From an uncultured Myxococcales bacterium (GTDB lineage: Bacteria; Myxococcota_A; Polyangia; Polyangiales; Polyangiaceae), in the NCBI GenBank assembly GCA_937872925.1, contig CALMUT010000148.1:1-64000 (forward strand): 64,000 nt of DNA, read 5' to 3'. Of the stretch, positions 3,990 to 49,843 are shown in pieces (the stretch's first letter is position 1; every line of letters begins with the position of its first letter). A model generated the notes under the pieces. It was not told where the DNA came from and searched no databases. It saw only the letters and a list, made by a program, of their open reading frames with translations. Position numbers and translations under genes: made by a program.

Positions 3990-5195
3990 ATGATTCGTCC
4001 GCTACTCGCCGTGCCAGTGTTGTGTGTCGCCGTCGCCGCATGCGGCGCCGAGTCTACGCCGGATGCAGAGTTTCGCGTGAACGCGCAGGCCATCGCGGGG
4101 GGTGTGGTGGACACGGAAAACACTCACGTGCTCGGGATCTCATCTTGGAGCGAGCACGGCGGCGGCTTGTGCACCGGCACGCTGATCGCCCCGAACTTGG
4201 TGCTCACCGCGCGGCACTGCGTATCGCCAAGCTTGAACGAAAACGAATTTGTGGTCTGCGGGCAGAGCGGATTCGGTGAGCCATACTCAGGCAACGCTTT
4301 GCGTTTCACCCAAGACGTGAAGATCTCGTACAAGAGCAAGAACTGGCGTCTGGGCACCACCGTGCGCGTGCCGAAGGAAGGCAACGACACCTGCGGGTTC
4401 GATGTCGCCCTGGTGATCCTGGATAAGCCGATGGCTGGAGTGACCCCCGCCGTTCCGCGCATCGACGTAGAGCCGCAAGTGGGAGAGTTGTACACCGCGA
4501 TTGGTTACGGCACGACGGACACCGGCGGCGGCGGTCAACGCATGTTGCTCGACGGGCTGCAGGTTCAGTGCACCTCGGGCAACTGTCCGTATTACACCCA
4601 GGTCCAGTCCACGGAGTGGCAAGGACAGACCGGCGTGTGCCAGGGGGATAGCGGCGGACCGGCGGTCGACCAGGACGGAAAAATCATCGGCGTCGTGTCC
4701 CGCGGGCAGGGCAAGTGCAGCAGTCCGACCTACGGTAGCGTGTGGGCGTGGAAAGACTTCATCATGGAGACGGCCCTCGAAGCCGCAGCCACCGGCGGCT
4801 ACGAACCTCCGTTCTGGGCGCTTTCGGGTGTGAGCGACGATCCGAATCCGCCGCCCCCCGTCACGGAGCCCGAGCCCACGGGCCCCAAGGGGCCGGACAT
4901 TCAAGGAGGACCCTGCGGCGTTGGGCGCGGCTGCGGTTCTGACTACGCTTGCTACGATCCCGGCGGTGGAGGAACCGCGTACTGCGCCGCGTTCTGTGAA
5001 GCCACGACGGATTGTGGGCAAGATCTAGTGTGCAGCGCGGACTTGGGCGTGTGCCTGGCGCCCGTGGCCGCCGCAGCGGAATCCGAACAGGGTGGCGGTT
5101 GCAGCGTGACGCTCAGCTCGGAAAACGGGCCCGTGCGTCCCGTTCCATGGCTGGTGGGCCTCGCGCTGGTGCTGCTGCGCCGCCGACGTCGCTAA
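3990..5195 (+). CDS. Trypsin-like serine protease with MYXO-CTERM-like tail
   Basis: The product is a secreted S1-family serine protease. The catalytic triad is visible: His76 in LTARHC, Asp138 in DVALVILD and Ser221 in GDSGGP. The N-terminus has a signal peptide with a possible lipobox (Cys18 in VAAC). After the protease domain come a Pro-rich linker and a Cys-rich module (about residues 300-355). The C-terminus has a Gly-Gly-Cys, a short hydrophobic segment (WLVGLALVLL) and an Arg cluster, which is the layout of MYXO-CTERM sorting signals that tether myxobacterial proteins to the surface. An N-terminal lipobox together with a C-terminal sorting tail would be redundant, so Cys18 may not be lipidated. 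ATG 3990 follows AGGAGAG at a suitable distance. Confidence 0.9.
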   Translation: MIRPLLAVPVLCVAVAACGAESTPDAEFRVNAQAIAGGVVDTENTHVLGISSWSEHGGGLCTGTLIAPNLVLTARHCVSPSLNENEFVVCGQSGFGEPYSGNALRFTQDVKISYKSKNWRLGTTVRVPKEGNDTCGFDVALVILDKPMAGVTPAVPRIDVEPQVGELYTAIGYGTTDTGGGGQRMLLDGLQVQCTSGNCPYYTQVQSTEWQGQTGVCQGDSGGPAVDQDGKIIGVVSRGQGKCSSPTYGSVWAWKDFIMETALEAAATGGYEPPFWALSGVSDDPNPPPPVTEPEPTGPKGPDIQGGPCGVGRGCGSDYACYDPGGGGTAYCAAFCEATTDCGQDLVCSADLGVCLAPVAAAAESEQGGGCSVTLSSENGPVRPVPWLVGLALVLLRRRRR

Positions 5196-5228
5196 GCAGT
5201 CACAGATCGCGCTACACTGCGGCACGAC

Positions 5229-6350
5229 TTGGCTGTTTCGACTTCGACCGCGGCTCTGATTGTCGCGCTGGTGCTGAGCGCCGCGCTCGGCGGCTGCAGT
5301 TCCGAACAAGCGACTGACAAGCCCGACCATCGCCCCGTGCTGCCGCCACGAACGACCCAGCAGAGCTGTTTTGCCGAAGCTGCCTCGTCCACGGATCCGG
5401 CGGCGACGGACTCCACACCGGGCGCTGCCCCGCAGTTGCTGAGTGAAAGCGGGTGTTTCGAAGACGTGGCCCAGCTGCTGCCTGGACCCGACTTGATTCC
5501 TTTCGACGTTGCGTCCGAACTCTGGACCGACGGTGCCGCGAAGCAGCGCTACATGGTCTTGCCCCCAGGGGAGAAGGTTGTTGTGGGCGCTGACGGCACC
5601 TGGGCATTTCCCCTGGGCTCCGTGCTGATCAAGCATTTCAGCTACGACGTCAGCGGATCTCGGACGGTGGAAACCCGCGTTTTGCTGCACCGAACTACGG
5701 GTTGGGAAGGCCACTCATACGAATGGCTTCCCGATGGCAGTGACGCGCGGCTGCTCAACGAATGGAAGCAGGTTCCCTTCGAAACCTCTCTGGGGACCGT
5801 CAACCATCTCTTTCCGAGCCGCTCCAGCTGCGAGGCCTGCCACTCTCCCAGTGCGGAATTTGTGCTCGGGCCGACTACCGCTCAGATGAACCATCAGGTT
5901 CAGTGGCAGGGGGGCGCGGGCAACCAAATGGACGCCCTCGCTGCCATTGAAGCGATCGAGCTTCCCGCCGATGTTGTCAGCGCGGAGCTGGACCAGCTGC
6001 CTTCACCGAAGGACAAATCAGCGTCCCTCGAAGGGCGAGCGCGGGCCTATCTGCACGCGAACTGCGGACACTGTCACCGTCCGGGAGGCTGGGCGCCCCC
6101 AGAGCTGGATCTCGACTTGCGCTGGCAAGTCTCCTTTGCCGACACGCGTACCTGTGATGTGCCGCTGCAGTTCGGCACGCTCTTCGGTAAGAAGCGGATC
6201 GTCCCGGGAGATCCAGACGCCTCGGGTCTGCTCGACCGCGTGCAGAGCGACGGCATCAATCGCATGCCCCCGATGGGAACGGGACTCATCGACGCGGAAG
6301 GCGTCGGTGTCCTGCGCGCGTTCGTCGCTTCGCTGAAAGCGTGCCCGTAG
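5229..6350 (+). CDS. Lipoprotein with two haem-binding CxxCH motifs
   Basis: This is a probable periplasmic cytochrome-like lipoprotein of 373 residues. The signal sequence ends in LGGC (Cys23), a lipobox. Two c-type haem attachment motifs are present, CEACH at 201-205 and CGHCH at 279-283, with a later Met-rich NRMPPMGTG that could supply an axial ligand. The overall pattern (GCFEDVAQLLPGPDLIPFDV; LPPGEKVVV; WAFPLGSVLIKHF) resembles the conserved family TIGR03806, found in proteins with a C-terminal cytochrome domain; no specific reaction is assigned to it. The start is TTG 5229, 33 bases after the protease stop on the same strand. Electron transfer is inferred from the haem motifs only. Confidence 0.8.
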   Translation: MAVSTSTAALIVALVLSAALGGCSSEQATDKPDHRPVLPPRTTQQSCFAEAASSTDPAATDSTPGAAPQLLSESGCFEDVAQLLPGPDLIPFDVASELWTDGAAKQRYMVLPPGEKVVVGADGTWAFPLGSVLIKHFSYDVSGSRTVETRVLLHRTTGWEGHSYEWLPDGSDARLLNEWKQVPFETSLGTVNHLFPSRSSCEACHSPSAEFVLGPTTAQMNHQVQWQGGAGNQMDALAAIEAIELPADVVSAELDQLPSPKDKSASLEGRARAYLHANCGHCHRPGGWAPPELDLDLRWQVSFADTRTCDVPLQFGTLFGKKRIVPGDPDASGLLDRVQSDGINRMPPMGTGLIDAEGVGVLRAFVASLKACP

Positions 6351-44022: not shown

Positions 44023-44412
44023 ATGCTGGCAATTCAGGTCGATTTTTCGAGTGCGGTCCCGGTCTACCGCCAGATCGCCGACGAGCTTCGGGCGTTGATC
44101 GCCCAAGGACAGCTCGCGGACGGGGCGGAGCTGCCGAGCGTGCGGGACTTGTCCGGCCGCGTCGGCGTCAACCTGAACACCGTCGCGAAGGCTTATCGCA
44201 TCTTGAGCGACGAAGGCGTGGTCGACTTGCGCCACGGCTCCCGCGCCAAGGTGCAGGTCCCGAGCGCGCCCTACCGGCGCAGCGACATGGATGACGTGGA
44301 GCGGCGTTTGGAAGACGTGGTCAGTCGCCTGGTCCTAGCTGGTGCGAGCCGAAAAGAAGTGGAGCGCATGGTCCAGCAAATGCTGGAACGATTTTTCGAC
44401 TGCGCGAAATGA
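44023..44412 (+). CDS. GntR-family repressor, short (YtrA-like) type
   Basis: The 129-residue protein has an N-terminal winged helix of the GntR family (VDFSSAVPVYRQIADELRAL, then ELPSVRDLSGRVGVNLNTVAKAYRILSDEG split across the helix-turn-helix). Only a short helical C-terminal part follows, as in the YtrA subfamily. It lacks the large ligand domains of FadR or HutC types. ATG 44023 follows GCAGGA and directly precedes the conserved N-terminus. The stop is 10 bases from the start of the DUF1648 gene, with GAGGAGG between, so the two form an operon. Its promoter overlaps an inverted repeat, suggesting self-repression. Confidence 0.93.
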   Translation: MLAIQVDFSSAVPVYRQIADELRALIAQGQLADGAELPSVRDLSGRVGVNLNTVAKAYRILSDEGVVDLRHGSRAKVQVPSAPYRRSDMDDVERRLEDVVSRLVLAGASRKEVERMVQQMLERFFDCAK

Positions 44413-44422
44413 GGAGGTCGTC

Positions 44423-45505
44423 ATGGAACACATCGCACGCTTGAGCTTGGCAGCGACGATTCTGATCGTCTGGGCCACGGTGCACCTGATTGCGCGGGCC
44501 GAAGGGCAGCGCGTCTTCTTCATGTATATCGGTCGGGACATCACCGGGCGAGACCGCGCTTGTGCGCGCCGCACTCGGATAGCCAATGCATTCTTTGCCC
44601 TGGGTGGCGTCCTCGTGGCTATGAGTTCCACGAGCGAGGTGCAACTTGCATTGGTAGCGTCTGTGCTGCCGCTGGTGCCGATCGCGTGGATGCTGGTGGA
44701 GTTTACCCTGCTCAGCAGAACCATGCCGAGCCACGTGCCGCCGGCGCGCTACGTGGTGCCCCTAGACGACCCGCCGCCCTGGCATGCGTTTGTCTCGCTT
44801 CCGCTTCAGGCCGCGAACGCCGCGCTCGTCCTGCTCAGTGCCGCGGCATTTTGGCTGCTCAGCGCGTCCTTACCCAGGCGCATTGCCCTGCATTTTGACC
44901 TGCATGGACGGCCCAATCGTTGGGGCAGCCCCGGCGAATTGTGGGTCCTGGGCGGCACCATGCTCTTTGACCTGTTGCTGCTCTGGTTCGTGGTGCTGAT
45001 GGTGACCAAGGAGCGCTGGGCCCTGCCGGCGGATCGCCGGACCGAGTACACGGAGCTGTCGATGCAGCGTCGCACGCTGATCGTGCGCATGGTCGAGTGG
45101 ATCATGCTGGGTATCAATGGCGCCATGGCTGTGATCTGGCTGGGCGTCACCCTGGGTACACTGCGTCCGGCGGTCGTTGGCGTGAGCATTGGGCTCGGTG
45201 TCGCGCTCATGGCAGTGGGCATTATCGGTCCCATGCTGGCGTACATGCGTCGGCTCTCTCGAGTCGGCGACGCCATGCGCGAGCTTGGGGGGTCGGAGGC
45301 CCTTGGCACGCACCCGGACGGCTGGCGCTACGGCGGGTTCGTGTACTACGCGCCCGATGACCCCGCGCTGTTCGTGCCCAAGCAGCGTGGGATCGGGCAA
45401 ACGTTGAACTTCGCTCGCCCGGGCGCTTGGGTCTTCCTGTTCGTGGTGCTTGTGCTGCCGCTAGCTCTGGGGTTGGGGGGCGTGGTCGCTGCCAGCGGGA
45501 AGTGA
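44423..45505 (+). CDS. DUF1648/DUF5808-type membrane protein
   Basis: The 360-residue protein has about eight membrane helices. Residues about 135-180 match DUF1648 (RIALHFDLHGRPNRWG), also found in SdpI-type immunity proteins, and residues about 295-330 match DUF5808 (FVYYAPDDPALFVPKQRGIG). Proteins of this kind often follow a YtrA-like GntR gene, as here, and are thought to protect against or respond to envelope stress; the exact role is unknown. ATG 44423 has a strong GAGGAGG 5 bases upstream. Its last 45 bases overlap the end of the convergent NnrS-like gene. Confidence 0.85.
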   Translation: MEHIARLSLAATILIVWATVHLIARAEGQRVFFMYIGRDITGRDRACARRTRIANAFFALGGVLVAMSSTSEVQLALVASVLPLVPIAWMLVEFTLLSRTMPSHVPPARYVVPLDDPPPWHAFVSLPLQAANAALVLLSAAAFWLLSASLPRRIALHFDLHGRPNRWGSPGELWVLGGTMLFDLLLLWFVVLMVTKERWALPADRRTEYTELSMQRRTLIVRMVEWIMLGINGAMAVIWLGVTLGTLRPAVVGVSIGLGVALMAVGIIGPMLAYMRRLSRVGDAMRELGGSEALGTHPDGWRYGGFVYYAPDDPALFVPKQRGIGQTLNFARPGAWVFLFVVLVLPLALGLGGVVAASGK

Positions 45506-46777
45506 CGGCGCGCGATGACGGATGGTGACAAGCAATTGCGCGAGGAGCAGAACCGCGGTGACCATGAGCGCTGCCCCGGTCAACCGCGCGAGCACGCTGT
45601 GCTGGGAAGCGATGGCCAGGAGGCCAAGTCCCAGGGTTGCGCTATGAGCCACAAAGGCCAACTGGGTCAGGCGTTCGGGCAGCAGTTTGCGCATGGGCGG
45701 CACCGTGACCAAACCGACAAGGGACGAGAAGCGGTGGAACCACACCAGAAACGGCACGATTCGCGTGAGCATCCCGTGCACGATGCTGCCCGCCCAGCCC
45801 CAGAGCACGAGCCAACCAAAGCTGAGGGCCAAGCGCGGGTCGTCGCCTAGCAATGCGGCCGCCCCCATAGCGCCGGCGGCCAGCCCGGCGAGCAGACCGG
45901 CTCTCCAGAACCACAAGCTGGGATCGGCGCGCTTGCGGCGCCGTTTGCGCAGGCTGTCCAGCGTCAAGAGTGGGTGCACACACCAGATGGTGACGGCGCC
46001 CGGCGCCGCGGCCAGAGCGATCGGCGTGCTGCCTGCCCTAGCCGCAATCCCAACGCCCAGGCCGCACAGGGTGCACAGCACCATGGCGACGAGGAGCCGC
46101 TGGGTGCGCTGCTGCAATGCTGGCGCTAGGTAGAACATGGGCACGACCTGGAAGCTCACTGACACGATCAGTCCGCCGATCCACACGATGAACCCGAACC
46201 CAAGGTGCACCTGCATCCAAAAGGGATACTGTGCGACGCTGACGGTTCCGCTGCGCGCGAGCGCCATGGCGCCCCCAAGACACACGACGCCGGCGAGTCC
46301 CGCAGTCGCGACGGCCATGCCCAGTACCGTCGGGGTCTTCGTTGGCGCGCGCCAGAGCGCGATGGAGACGGGCGCGATAAACAACGTCAGCGCCAGGGTC
46401 AGCGCGAGCGCACCGCTTGCCAATACGCGCTGGGATCCGGTGAGCAGACCGAGCACCAGTCCGGCGATGCCGGCGACGAAAAAGACGTGCACCAGCCGGG
46501 CGCTGCGCACCCCGGGGACCGCAGCACCCGCCACGACTGGGATCATCTGATACAGCGCGCCGAGCATCACGCAGCCGATGAAGCCAAGGGTCCCGAGGTG
46601 CACCCAGGCAGCGGTGGCGCTTGCGATGCGTGTGGCCAGGAGCGCGCTGCCAAAGTAGGCGAGAAGCGCCCCCGCCGCCGCGATCCCGACGGGCGCCGTC
46701 AGAAAGAAGGAAAGCGGGATCCCGAGGGGAGGGGCTTGCTCCAGGCGCAGCCCCTGGGTTTGCATGCCGCTGCTCAT
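45461..46777 (-). CDS. NnrS/haem-copper-oxidase-like polytopic membrane protein
   Basis: The 438-residue protein has about twelve hydrophobic helices and conserved-looking His residues near helix ends: WVHLGTLGFIGCVMLGALYQMIP, FWMQVHLGFGFIVWIGGL, WAGSIVHGMLTRIVPFLVWFH. This recalls NnrS, a membrane protein of nitric-oxide metabolism, and the fold of cbb3/NO-reductase-type oxidase subunit I, although the Cu-ligand His pair is not evident. It could bind haem. ATG 46777 overlaps the TetR-DUF2249 stop (ATGA), so the two are translationally coupled. A longer frame to 46930 is inside that gene and is not coding. Confidence 0.75.
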   Translation of the reverse strand: MSSGMQTQGLRLEQAPPLGIPLSFFLTAPVGIAAAGALLAYFGSALLATRIASATAAWVHLGTLGFIGCVMLGALYQMIPVVAGAAVPGVRSARLVHVFFVAGIAGLVLGLLTGSQRVLASGALALTLALTLFIAPVSIALWRAPTKTPTVLGMAVATAGLAGVVCLGGAMALARSGTVSVAQYPFWMQVHLGFGFIVWIGGLIVSVSFQVVPMFYLAPALQQRTQRLLVAMVLCTLCGLGVGIAARAGSTPIALAAAPGAVTIWCVHPLLTLDSLRKRRRKRADPSLWFWRAGLLAGLAAGAMGAAALLGDDPRLALSFGWLVLWGWAGSIVHGMLTRIVPFLVWFHRFSSLVGLVTVPPMRKLLPERLTQLAFVAHSATLGLGLLAIASQHSVLARLTGAALMVTAVLLLAQLLVTIRHRAPSLPAGSDHAPQPQS

Positions 46778-47898
46778 GTTGGCAGACCCAAGCGGACCAG
46801 CGCGCTGCCATCGGCTTCTTCGAGGATCTGGAAGACGATGCCGCGCTGCTCCAGATGCGGCACAAGCAATTTGGGGAACCGAGGCAGCCGCGCGAGATAC
46901 ACCGCGCCGGGGGTGAGCGCACCGGCGCACAACAAACAGCGCTCGAGGGGTTCCGGCGCTTCGAGGTCTCGCAGGTCTTCTACCTGGGGCTGTCCGCCGT
47001 GCACGATCTGAACGCGAAACTTCCGACTACCCTGTGCCTCCACGTCCAGGCGGTGCCCGCGTGCCTCCAGCAAGGAGATCAGGGGTGCCGGCCGAAACGG
47101 TGCCGTGACGACCAACACGCCGGCGGGCCCGACCGCCGCGAGAGCTTCTAGAATCGACTCGACGGGATCGACACCGGCTGCGAGGATCGGGCGCACGTCG
47201 AGGGCGCGCAGTGGCTCTGCGCTGCGACGCTGCTCGGGAGGTGCGATGATTTGTTGGCGTGCGGGGTCTGCCACGGCCACGGGTACGATCCGGGGTGCTG
47301 CTCGCATGCCCTGCGCCCAAACTGTGAACAAGCGGGCTCCCTCCGCAGAGAGGGATGCTCCCGGCGCCGGTGACAGTCGCCGGCTCAGGGTGGCGCCCTG
47401 CAGCAGACCAATGAAGGCCGTCGCGGCATCGCGCGCTTCCACGTCCGTGCGCAACACCCCATCGCGTTGTCCCGCGCGCACGAGCTCCGTCACTAAGGAG
47501 GTCTGCATGGCGTGGAGATCCCGCAGCGCTTCGAATAAGGGTCCAGCGCCAATAGCGGCATGCGCGAAGAGCAGCCGGGGTAGGCCCGGGTGCCGTTCGA
47601 CGTGGGAAAAAACTGCCTGGGAGAGGTGCTGCAGCTGCAAGTCTGCGCTGGGGCATTCCCGCAAGACCTGCTCCGCTAGTGCACCCAGCTCCGCGCGGGA
47701 TTGCTCCACCACCGCCACCAAGAGCTCTTCTTTCGAACCGAAGTGCCGAAAGAGCGCCGGTTGCGACAGGCCCAGGGCGCTGGCGATCTGTCGGGTGCTC
47801 ACCTGGTCGAGAGATCCCTGGGACAGCAGGTCCAAGGTCGCCGCGATGATCTGGCGACGTCGCACGTCACTTTTCTCTCGCTGGGTATCCCTCGACAT
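46774..47898 (-). CDS. TetR-type regulator fused to two DUF2249-like domains
   Basis: Residues 1-200 form a TetR-family regulator with its helix-turn-helix (VSTRQIASALGLSQPALFRHF) and a helical ligand or dimer domain. Two DUF2249-like segments follow, one near LDVRPILAAGVDPVESILEAL (about 232-300) and one near DLRDLEAPEPLERCLLCAGAL (about 307-370). DUF2249 commonly occurs beside hemerythrins and NO- or nitrite-related genes, so the tail may sense redox or NO chemistry; the CLLC pair is notable. ATG 47898 leaves the 20-bp palindrome in the leader; ATG 47916 would put it in coding sequence. No clear ribosome-binding site precedes either. The gene is coupled to the NnrS-like gene. Confidence 0.82.
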   Translation of the reverse strand: MSRDTQREKSDVRRRQIIAATLDLLSQGSLDQVSTRQIASALGLSQPALFRHFGSKEELLVAVVEQSRAELGALAEQVLRECPSADLQLQHLSQAVFSHVERHPGLPRLLFAHAAIGAGPLFEALRDLHAMQTSLVTELVRAGQRDGVLRTDVEARDAATAFIGLLQGATLSRRLSPAPGASLSAEGARLFTVWAQGMRAAPRIVPVAVADPARQQIIAPPEQRRSAEPLRALDVRPILAAGVDPVESILEALAAVGPAGVLVVTAPFRPAPLISLLEARGHRLDVEAQGSRKFRVQIVHGGQPQVEDLRDLEAPEPLERCLLCAGALTPGAVYLARLPRFPKLLVPHLEQRGIVFQILEEADGSALVRLGLPT

Positions 47899-47916
47899 GT
47901 TATCGATCGATAACAT
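47897..47916. promoter_or_regulatory. Perfect 20-bp palindrome, probable TetR operator
   Basis: ATGTTATCGATCGATAACAT reads the same on both strands. It lies between the divergent TetR-DUF2249 and hemerythrin genes, 20 bases upstream of the hemerythrin ATG and at the regulator's start. TetR dimers bind such sites, so one dimer could repress both genes. Flanking CTCGA/TCGAG extends the symmetry imperfectly. Confidence 0.78.
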
Positions 47917-47936
47917 ACTCGAGCTGGAGGCGATAT

Positions 47937-48383
47937 ATGGGTCTGGAATCGGGGCCGTCTGAGTTTTTCACGCAAGATCACCGGGACTGTGACGAACAGT
48001 GGGCCCAGGTGGAGCAGGCGGTGGACGCCGGCTCCGGGGGCGCGGAGGCCTACGCCCAGTTCGAAAGCTCGCTGCTCTCGCATTTGGCCATGGAGGAGGA
48101 AGTGCTCTTTCCCGCCCTCGAGCAAGCCTCGGGCATGCAAGGCGGACCCACCATGGTCATGCGCGCAGAGCATCGGCAAATGCGCGGGCTTCTGGAACAA
48201 ATGCGAGCGGCCGTGGAGCAAGGCGACTTCGACGCGGTCGTGGATCAAGGCGACACCTTGCTCATGTTGATCCAGCAGCACAACATGAAGGAAGAGAGCG
48301 TTTTGTACCCGCTGGCAGAGCGATTGCTGGCGCCCCAATGGGCTCAGTTGGCCGAGCGGCTCTCGCCCTACCGACAAAGCTAG
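47937..48383 (+). CDS. Hemerythrin-domain protein
   Basis: The 148-residue protein is a hemerythrin-like four-helix bundle for a non-haem di-iron site. Ligand candidates are His15 (QDHRDCDEQW), His49 with Glu53 (HLAMEEEVLFP), His79 (AEHRQMR) and His115 with Glu119 (HNMKEESVLYP). The pattern is close to YtfE/RIC-type hemerythrins that act in nitric-oxide defence, but the N-terminal ScdA domain is absent. ATG 47937 has a good GGAGG. The palindromic operator lies just upstream, so it is probably controlled by the TetR-DUF2249 protein. Confidence 0.93.
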   Translation: MGLESGPSEFFTQDHRDCDEQWAQVEQAVDAGSGGAEAYAQFESSLLSHLAMEEEVLFPALEQASGMQGGPTMVMRAEHRQMRGLLEQMRAAVEQGDFDAVVDQGDTLLMLIQQHNMKEESVLYPLAERLLAPQWAQLAERLSPYRQS

Positions 48384-48451
48384 CCGTCTCTTCGGAGTTC
48401 CTCGCCTCGTATTGACTCGCCGACGATGTGCGCGAAAATGTCGGCGGGGTC

Positions 48452-49843
48452 ATGCAACCGAGTCTTTCGCCGGGAGATGTAGTCGCAGAGAAGCTGCGCG
48501 TCGTCCGTAAGCTCGGCGAGGGTGGCATGGGCGCCGTCTATGAGGTCGAACACCTGTTCACCAAGCATCGGCGCGCACTCAAGATGTTGCATGGGCAGTG
48601 CGTCGAGAACCCGGACGCGGTGGAACGCTTCCTGCGCGAAGCCTCCGCAGCCGGGCGCATTGGCAGCGAACATATCGTGGAGACCTTCGACGCGGGCCGC
48701 CTGCCGAGCGGTGAACCGTATCTGGTGATGGAGCTGCTCGAGGGCGAGTCCTTGGCCGACCGTTTGCTGCGCAAGCAGCGCCTGGCTGCTTCCGAGGCCG
48801 TCGAGATCGTAAAACAAGCGGCTATTGGTGTGCAGGCCGCCCACGACGCCGGGATCGTGCACCGCGATCTGAAGCCGGACAATCTGTTCCTCACCCGCGC
48901 CTCACCGCGATTCCTGAAGCTCTTAGATTTCGGCATTTCGAAGTTCGACAGTCAGCGTTTCGGCACGCGGGAAGTGACCCAAGAGGGGGCGCTTCTGGGC
49001 ACGCCCTACTACATGTCCCCGGAACAAGTGCGCGGTGGCAGTATCGACGCGGCCACGGATGTGTACGCCCTGGGCGTGGTGCTCTACGAGTGCCTCACGG
49101 GGGAGAAGCCCTTTGTCGCGAGCACCCTGCCCGCGCTCAGCGTCAAGATATACGAAGGCAGTTACACGCCCCCGGAAATCGTGGTGCCGGAGCTGCCGTC
49201 AAGACTTTGCGCCCTGGTGGTCCGTGCCATGGCCAGCGACAAGGCCGAGCGTCCAGCGAGCGCAAAAGCCCTGGCGACGGAGCTCGACCAAATTGCGGAG
49301 GTGTTGAGCCAGGGGCTCGAGAAGACCGTTGCGGCGCCTTCGATCGCGCCGCCGTCGGATGTTGACTCGACGGTGCTCTTGGATCCGGAGCCGCGCGAGT
49401 CCGTGATCCAGGCGGCTTCGGATCAGCAGGGCATGTCCTTGGGCGGGCTGGCGACGACGGGACTCTCTGCGCGTAGTCAGCCGGCCGCCACCCCCGCGAA
49501 GAAGCGATGGCCGCTGATCGTCGGCTCTGGGGTGGTCGCCGCCGCAGTCTCCATCGGATTCGTCGTTCGATCACAATCCCAGGCCGCAACCACCCTCGGC
49601 GCGGAGGCACCGGCGATCGAGTCCACGGGGGCCGCGACGTCTGCAGACATCGACGTTTCGCCGACGACAGCACCGCCTGCCACGGCGTCGAGCCCCCAGC
49701 CCCTGGCTTCAGTGACGGCGATTGACGCCTCCGCACCCAAGGCGCAGCCCCCCAAGACCGGCCCGAGGGCCACGCCGGCCACCAAGCCCACAAACGACCG
49801 GGCGGGGAAACACGGAGTCGCCACGGAAAACCCGTTCAAATAG
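48452..49843 (+). CDS. Hanks-type Ser/Thr protein kinase, membrane-anchored
   Basis: The 463-residue protein has a complete N-terminal kinase domain: GEGGMGAVYEVEH (Gly loop), ALKMLHGQ (Lys), HRDLKPDNLFL (catalytic loop), LLDFGISKFD and GTPYYMSPEQ. A Pro/Ala/Ser-rich linker and one membrane segment (WPLIVGSGVVAAAVSIGFVV) follow, then a Thr/Ala/Pro-rich extracytoplasmic tail with no recognised domain. I chose ATG 48452; GTG 48428 would add eight residues. The TPR-PEGA gene starts 16 bases after the stop, so the two probably form an operon and may act together. Confidence 0.94.
   Translation: MQPSLSPGDVVAEKLRVVRKLGEGGMGAVYEVEHLFTKHRRALKMLHGQCVENPDAVERFLREASAAGRIGSEHIVETFDAGRLPSGEPYLVMELLEGESLADRLLRKQRLAASEAVEIVKQAAIGVQAAHDAGIVHRDLKPDNLFLTRASPRFLKLLDFGISKFDSQRFGTREVTQEGALLGTPYYMSPEQVRGGSIDAATDVYALGVVLYECLTGEKPFVASTLPALSVKIYEGSYTPPEIVVPELPSRLCALVVRAMASDKAERPASAKALATELDQIAEVLSQGLEKTVAAPSIAPPSDVDSTVLLDPEPRESVIQAASDQQGMSLGGLATTGLSARSQPAATPAKKRWPLIVGSGVVAAAVSIGFVVRSQSQAATTLGAEAPAIESTGAATSADIDVSPTTAPPATASSPQPLASVTAIDASAPKAQPPKTGPRATPATKPTNDRAGKHGVATENPFK

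Follow-up and report, generated by a model that had tools for sequence, protein, structure and literature searches.

Here, we describe a three-gene cassette at positions 45461-48383 of a 64,000-nucleotide stretch of contig CALMUT010000148.1 from an uncultured Myxococcales bacterium (hereafter the window), in which the gene of a TetR-type repressor with two C-terminal DUF2249 domains, TetR-(DUF2249)2, and the gene of a membrane protein, both on the minus strand, are divergent from a hemerythrin gene on the plus strand. We found that the cassette is a conserved and most likely self-regulating three-gene unit, mainly in myxobacteria, with a palindrome in its shared control region that is very likely a real operator. 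In the best reading, the cassette deals with nitric oxide (NO) or related nitrogen oxides, and it is plausible that these are also its signal. The nearest named relatives indicate that the host is a Polyangiaceae-type myxobacterium. The features of the locus are as follows:

46774..47898, minus strand: TetR-type repressor of 374 amino acids that ends in two DUF2249 domains (Pfam PF00440 and PF10006; 30 homologues; AlphaFold2 model)
46774..46777, minus strand: ATGA overlap of the TetR-DUF2249 stop with the membrane-gene start at 46777, which couples the two genes
45461..46777, minus strand: membrane protein with 12 transmembrane helices (TM), 438 amino acids, with a heme-copper-oxidase subunit I fold in the predicted structure
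47897..47916, no strand assigned: very likely operator between the divergent genes, ATGTTATCGATCGATAACAT, a perfect palindrome of 20 bp with the core GTTATC-N4-GATAAC
47937..48383, plus strand: hemerythrin-like di-iron protein, 148 amino acids (PF01814, 83.9 bits; YtfE ligand set; no ScdA_N)

Is this arrangement common to other genomes? We searched 284 genomes of the phylum and found the TetR-(DUF2249)2 protein in 36 of them, in some cases as a partial copy at a contig end. Among the 30 Myxococcota loci then compared, the membrane gene lies downstream in 28, one of the two absences being a contig edge, and the divergent hemerythrin gene is present in 29. The same fusion and neighbourhood, which an earlier note on this DNA had proposed to look for elsewhere, are thus found again, and the ATGA overlap reported there is also real, with the TetR stop lying over the membrane-gene start. 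A wider scan with one genome per species added loci of this layout that are assigned to Planctomycetota, Gemmatimonadota, Acidobacteriota and Pseudomonadota, which brings the number of distinct full-length regulators to 45. To call a TetR protein with two DUF2249 domains an uncommon build, as was done earlier, is fair, yet it has at least that many distinct full-length relatives. The Planctomycetota loci fall at two separate positions among those of Myxococcota, which suggests horizontal transfer, with misbinned metagenome-assembled genomes as a caveat. When the neighbouring genes were clustered, none beyond the three was seen to recur with the cassette. We found no description of a TetR-DUF2249 protein in the literature searched, the coverage of which was incomplete, and its novelty is therefore provisional.

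The palindrome described earlier in the shared control region is exact at 47897-47916. Of 48 distinct intergenic regions between a hemerythrin and a TetR gene, 46 carry an exact copy of AtGTTATCNNNNGATAACat, with the consensus A-t-GTTATC-[AG]NN[CT]-GATAAC-a-t, and in the two others the mismatches lie in one half-site. All 47 exact operator copies of those loci sit in the hemerythrin/TetR intergenic region, and conservation flanking the core mostly stops within two bases. Because the same half-sites and 4-bp spacer recur exactly across nearly all of these homologous regions, the palindrome is not a product of chance. We infer that the TetR protein binds this operator. Among the regulator homologues, the stretch QPALFRHF of the recognition helix hardly varies, which fits a fixed operator. 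An alternative in-frame ATG of the regulator, at 47916, falls within the operator.

A genome-wide search for the palindrome, also proposed earlier, returned a single occurrence in the 9.4-Mb genome from which the window comes, and the 14-bp core occurs only once even when one mismatch is allowed. All 10 genomes tested in which the cassette has no TetR domain are free of operator copies. Extra copies are present elsewhere in seven genomes, almost all of them inside unrelated coding genes, e.g. in an asparagine-synthase-like gene in which the motif encodes M-L-S-A-D-N; the copy at L138 sits between poorly called genes. The single copy here, the absence of copies where TetR is missing and the position of the extra copies in unrelated genes make an autoregulated single-locus circuit most likely; a genome-wide regulon defined by the operator was rejected on account of those same positions. 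That the three genes form one regulon, as the earlier note had proposed, is strongly supported, because the layout is conserved, the operator is invariant and, where the TetR domain is missing, the operator is missing too. We also looked for FNR-type palindromes and others shared among the TetR-less intergenic regions and found none. Two variations of the operator region were seen among the relatives. A Planctomycetota-assigned cassette (L090:4956-4987) has two operators in succession, head to tail and 16 bp apart, and at L016 and L055 a TetR-(DUF2249)2 relative with no hemerythrin or membrane gene nearby has an imperfect operator remnant just upstream.

The domain composition of the regulator agrees with what had been noticed at first sight. 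In a Pfam profile search of 46774-47898, TetR_N (PF00440) reached 54 bits against a cut-off of 24, and PF10006 reached 63.9 bits for the whole protein, in two stretches; both families also match 30 of the 30 homologues scanned. When the tail domains were scored singly, PF10006 gave 44.3 bits, above the cut-off of 29.5, and 26.3 bits, just below it, so the second domain alone is marginal. The protein consists of a helix-turn-helix (residues ~12-58), a helical ligand-binding domain (~64-198), a flexible linker (~200-228), DUF2249-1 (~230-301) and DUF2249-2 (~304-372). The AlphaFold2 model (mean predicted local distance difference test score, pLDDT, 91) has a complete, all-helical TetR-fold ligand-binding domain, with KstR2, SlmA and FadR as the top matches in the PDB, and each tail domain is folded as beta-alpha-beta-alpha-beta-beta. 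We found no solved structure related in sequence to the DUF2249 tail.

Do the two tail domains serve the repressor in the same way? Here, we scored a separate profile for each domain across the cassette loci and observed a double dissociation. DUF2249-2 is retained (62-102 bits) in 11 TetR-less loci, all of which, L098 excepted, have a degraded DUF2249-1 or none. Conversely, three loci (L094, L097, L099) have kept TetR, the operator and DUF2249-1 together with the membrane and hemerythrin genes, and DUF2249-2 is gone. Judged from these patterns, DUF2249-1 goes with the repressor, whereas the partners of DUF2249-2 are the membrane protein and hemerythrin; since DUF2249-2 persists in the 11 TetR-less cassettes, it must have a task of its own. 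The earlier proposal that the tail provides the sensor of the repressor is thus supported only in part: DUF2249-1 stays with TetR, but DUF2249-2 also occurs without it. To explain the TetR-less state on the tree of the membrane protein, four changes are needed, and supported branches force three or more of these; with a root that is a midpoint only, the simplest reading is that these cassettes lost the TetR domain.

The hemerythrin gene was correctly recognized as divergent and YtfE-like. Its product matches PF01814 only, with no ScdA_N domain, and carries the complete di-iron ligand set of four His and two bridging Glu listed for YtfE (PMC9268430): H15, H49, E53, H79, H115 and E119 are each present in 28 of 28 homologues, and the Glu beside the third His (E159 in YtfE) is likewise invariant. 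The closest solved relative is E. coli YtfE (5FNN, E 3.5e-6). In contrast to YtfE, or RIC, which has an N-terminal ScdA_N domain, the protein of the window lacks this domain and scores 40.5 bits against the YtfE equivalog cut-off of 254.

The membrane protein had been called NnrS-like and oxidase-like, and only the latter holds. Even with the threshold relaxed to E<=1, PF05940 (NnrS) did not match any of 26 members of the family, and the genome contains two true NnrS genes elsewhere; homology to NnrS by profile was rejected, with only a weak 28-residue local similarity remaining. Indeed, NnrS and the membrane protein are separate families, with members of both side by side in one genome and even within a single polypeptide. 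No credible Pfam family was found for the protein of the window, PF00115 matched none of the 26 members save one weak one, and a solved-structure sequence relative of the family was not found. The resemblance to oxidases appears at the level of the predicted fold. The model (pLDDT 94) aligns with CcoN (3MK7) over 386 residues with a Z score of 32.9 and with NorB of the cytochrome c-dependent NO reductase (cNOR; 4XYD) over ~380 residues with a Z score of 31.3, and Foldseek matched it to heme-copper oxidases at E about 1e-5. Subunit I of these enzymes shares the 12-helix fold and has a His pair in TM7 and an HxH motif in TM10, whereas the membrane protein has neither: with helix numbering taken from the model, TM7 (residues ~217-249) contains no His, and in TM10 the invariant H334 and H348 stand singly and form no HxH. 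Because both elements are absent, there is no canonical site for CuB, the copper of the oxidase center, and high-spin heme. H60, H191, H334, H348 and H378 are invariant in the family, and a weak local profile match aligns residues 52-107 with the HxH unit of CcoN, with H60 at the second His. Based on the model, we consider that the protein is likely heme-binding but not an oxidase.

What does the cassette respond to? Several genomic contexts, together with the YtfE ligand set of the hemerythrin, point indirectly to nitrogen oxides. NnrS, a family tied to nitrogen-oxide regulons (PMC1274295), is operonic with or fused to the membrane family at L065, L114 and L126: at L065 it lies directly downstream of the cassette with an ATGA overlap, and at L114:5375-7954 the oxidase-fold protein is fused in frame to NnrS (PF05940 366 bits, residues 475-854). 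In Chromobacterium, NnrS, hemerythrin, DUF2249 and membrane protein stand in a row. Free-standing relatives of the cassette proteins sit near nirK, norQD and nnrS; in the seven alphaproteobacterial loci with a free-standing DUF2249 pair that a tail-only search returned (L102, L104, L105, L107, L110, L111, L113), nirK lies within 10 kb in all seven and norD is present in six. A quinol-dependent NO reductase (qNOR) is encoded within 5 kb of one cassette (G159), and the genome of the window carries NirK in addition to its two NnrS genes. Previous studies reported that the DUF2249 proteins DrpA and DrpB of Thermus act in nitrate-respiration control (PMC6282519) and that DUF2249 genes of Haloferax mediterranei are induced under denitrification (PMC11218638).

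A number of observations weigh against this assignment. Genomes with the cassette are not enriched in nirK (9/36 vs 52/248, Fisher P=0.66) or nor (5/36 vs 24/248, Fisher P=0.39), a co-occurrence that would support the role without defining it, and the operator was not found at other nitrogen-oxide genes. The regulator homologues have no conserved Cys, several having no Cys at all, and no conserved metal-ligand pattern; the sole invariant His, H52, is in the DNA-binding domain, and neither DUF2249 domain has an invariant His, the DrpA-type His not being conserved here. Furthermore, the chemistry of O2, heme or iron is another use to which hemerythrin-like and oxidase-fold proteins are put. Setting the contexts against the missing enrichment, we therefore hold the nitrogen-oxide role to be the best reading, with a probability somewhat better than even. 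As no Cys or metal-ligand pattern is conserved, a thiol, heme, iron or other metal sensor within the regulator itself is unlikely.

We propose, again with a probability somewhat better than even, that the cassette is a self-contained, single-locus and repressor-controlled system that serves to protect against NO and related nitrogen oxides or to process them. A TetR dimer on the operator would repress the hemerythrin gene and its own operon, combining autorepression with repression of the effectors, and an inducing signal would release it. Nitrogen oxide or iron-nitrosyl species would then be bound or processed by the hemerythrin and the membrane protein, which NnrS would join as a partner in some lineages. 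DUF2249-1 would be part of the regulatory half, and DUF2249-2 would work with the membrane protein and hemerythrin. The signal would probably arrive via a small ligand or via contact with the membrane partner and not through a thiol or metal center of the regulator's own, and the regulon would be confined to this locus.

Alternatively, the same local repressor cassette might respond to oxygen, redox state, heme or iron with no specific part for NO, the hemerythrin serving as an O2 or iron buffer next to a heme-bearing membrane protein. Such a role would agree with the lack of co-occurrence with nirK or nor, with an oxidase-type fold nearest to the cbb3 oxidase CcoN and with the invariant candidate heme histidines. 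We nevertheless regard it as rather unlikely, considering that the hemerythrin has the YtfE/RIC ligand set and YtfE as its closest solved relatives, that NnrS is found in an operon and in a fusion with the membrane family and that nirK and norQD lie near the free-standing relatives. An explanation in which an ordinary TetR protein binds an unrelated small molecule, with the DUF2249 domains as fusion passengers of no regulatory role, seems doubtful to us. It would account for the complete helical ligand-binding domain ahead of the tail, the flexible linker and the survival of DUF2249-2 without TetR, but not for DUF2249-1, which is more conserved than the ligand-binding domain (46% vs 36% mean identity) and stays with TetR even after DUF2249-2 has been lost.

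A mechanism compatible with either signal is a membrane-tethered switch. In this model, the heme of the oxidase-fold protein would sense the gas, and docking of the DUF2249 tail on that protein would pull the repressor off the DNA. The overlap of the two genes, the persistence of DUF2249-2 beside the membrane protein without TetR, the lack of sensing residues in the regulator and the reported association of Thermus DrpB with the membrane (PMC6282519) are in line with it. However, the three loci L094, L097 and L099 keep TetR, the operator and the membrane protein without DUF2249-2, and docking and heme binding are both putative, so we give this switch little credence. With equal reserve, we propose as an improbable extension of the nitrogen-oxide reading that the regulator represents a new nitrogen-oxide-responsive repressor class without a cofactor of its own, which would read a catalytically disarmed oxidase-fold membrane protein via its DUF2249 tail. 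If so, what was an oxidase fold would now act as a gas sensor with a direct link to a repressor.

The nitrogen-oxide reading can be compared with systems already described. DrpB and DrpA of Thermus thermophilus (DUF1858-DUF2249-DUF2249 and DUF2249, respectively), with a proposed sensing or regulatory role in nitrogen-oxide respiration (PMC6282519), have tandem DUF2249 in common with the regulator, but no DNA-binding domain; the regulator of the window has TetR domains in place of DUF1858, plus an operator. The known regulators NsrR, NorR, DNR/NnrR and HcpR likewise control hemerythrin (dnrN/ytfE) and nnrS-type genes (PMC1274295), but belong to the Rrf2, sigma-54 activator and CRP/FNR families and not to TetR; the operator described here is unlike theirs, and its regulon comprises one locus. 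If the nitrogen-oxide role is true, a TetR-type class would be added to the NO regulators, in phyla with little-studied NO responses, and NnrS, an orphan of the NO response, would be linked to an oxidase-fold partner.

To our knowledge, no biochemical function of DUF2249 has been established, and in the literature searched the family is mentioned by two papers only. The cassette offers a testable setting for this family, in which the operator is defined, the target is a single locus, the fused DNA-binding domain can serve as readout and natural variants separate each DUF2249 domain from its partner.

On either side of the cassette lie a gene for a DUF1648/DUF5808 membrane protein (44342-45505) and one for a serine/threonine kinase (48428-49843), which are not beside the cassette in the relatives compared. 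Elsewhere in the same genome, a second DUF2249 locus on contig C180 (L042, 1561-6913) comprises a sigma-54 regulator, a membrane-protein paralogue (about 26-35% identity), a DUF1858-(DUF2249)2 protein, a single DUF2249 and another DUF2249 protein; the DUF1858-(DUF2249)2 protein (4920-5756), which has the DrpB architecture, stands beside the paralogue. A class III alcohol dehydrogenase of the S-nitrosoglutathione (GSNO)-reductase type and an S-formylglutathione hydrolase are encoded nearby. On contig C8 (L043, 1970-5536), a sigma-54 regulator is divergent from a hemerythrin-type protein that resembles RIC in length and appearance, after which come genes for a DUF59-like protein, a DUF2249 protein and another membrane protein; the sigma-54 regulator and DUF2249 are the profile-confirmed members of this locus. 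Finally, two proteins of the heme-copper-oxidase superfamily on contigs C213 and C275 (L130, L131) have the non-canonical TM6 motifs GHQSQQ and GHVIVN and score far under the oxidase equivalog cut-offs, and are candidates for unusual NO reductases.

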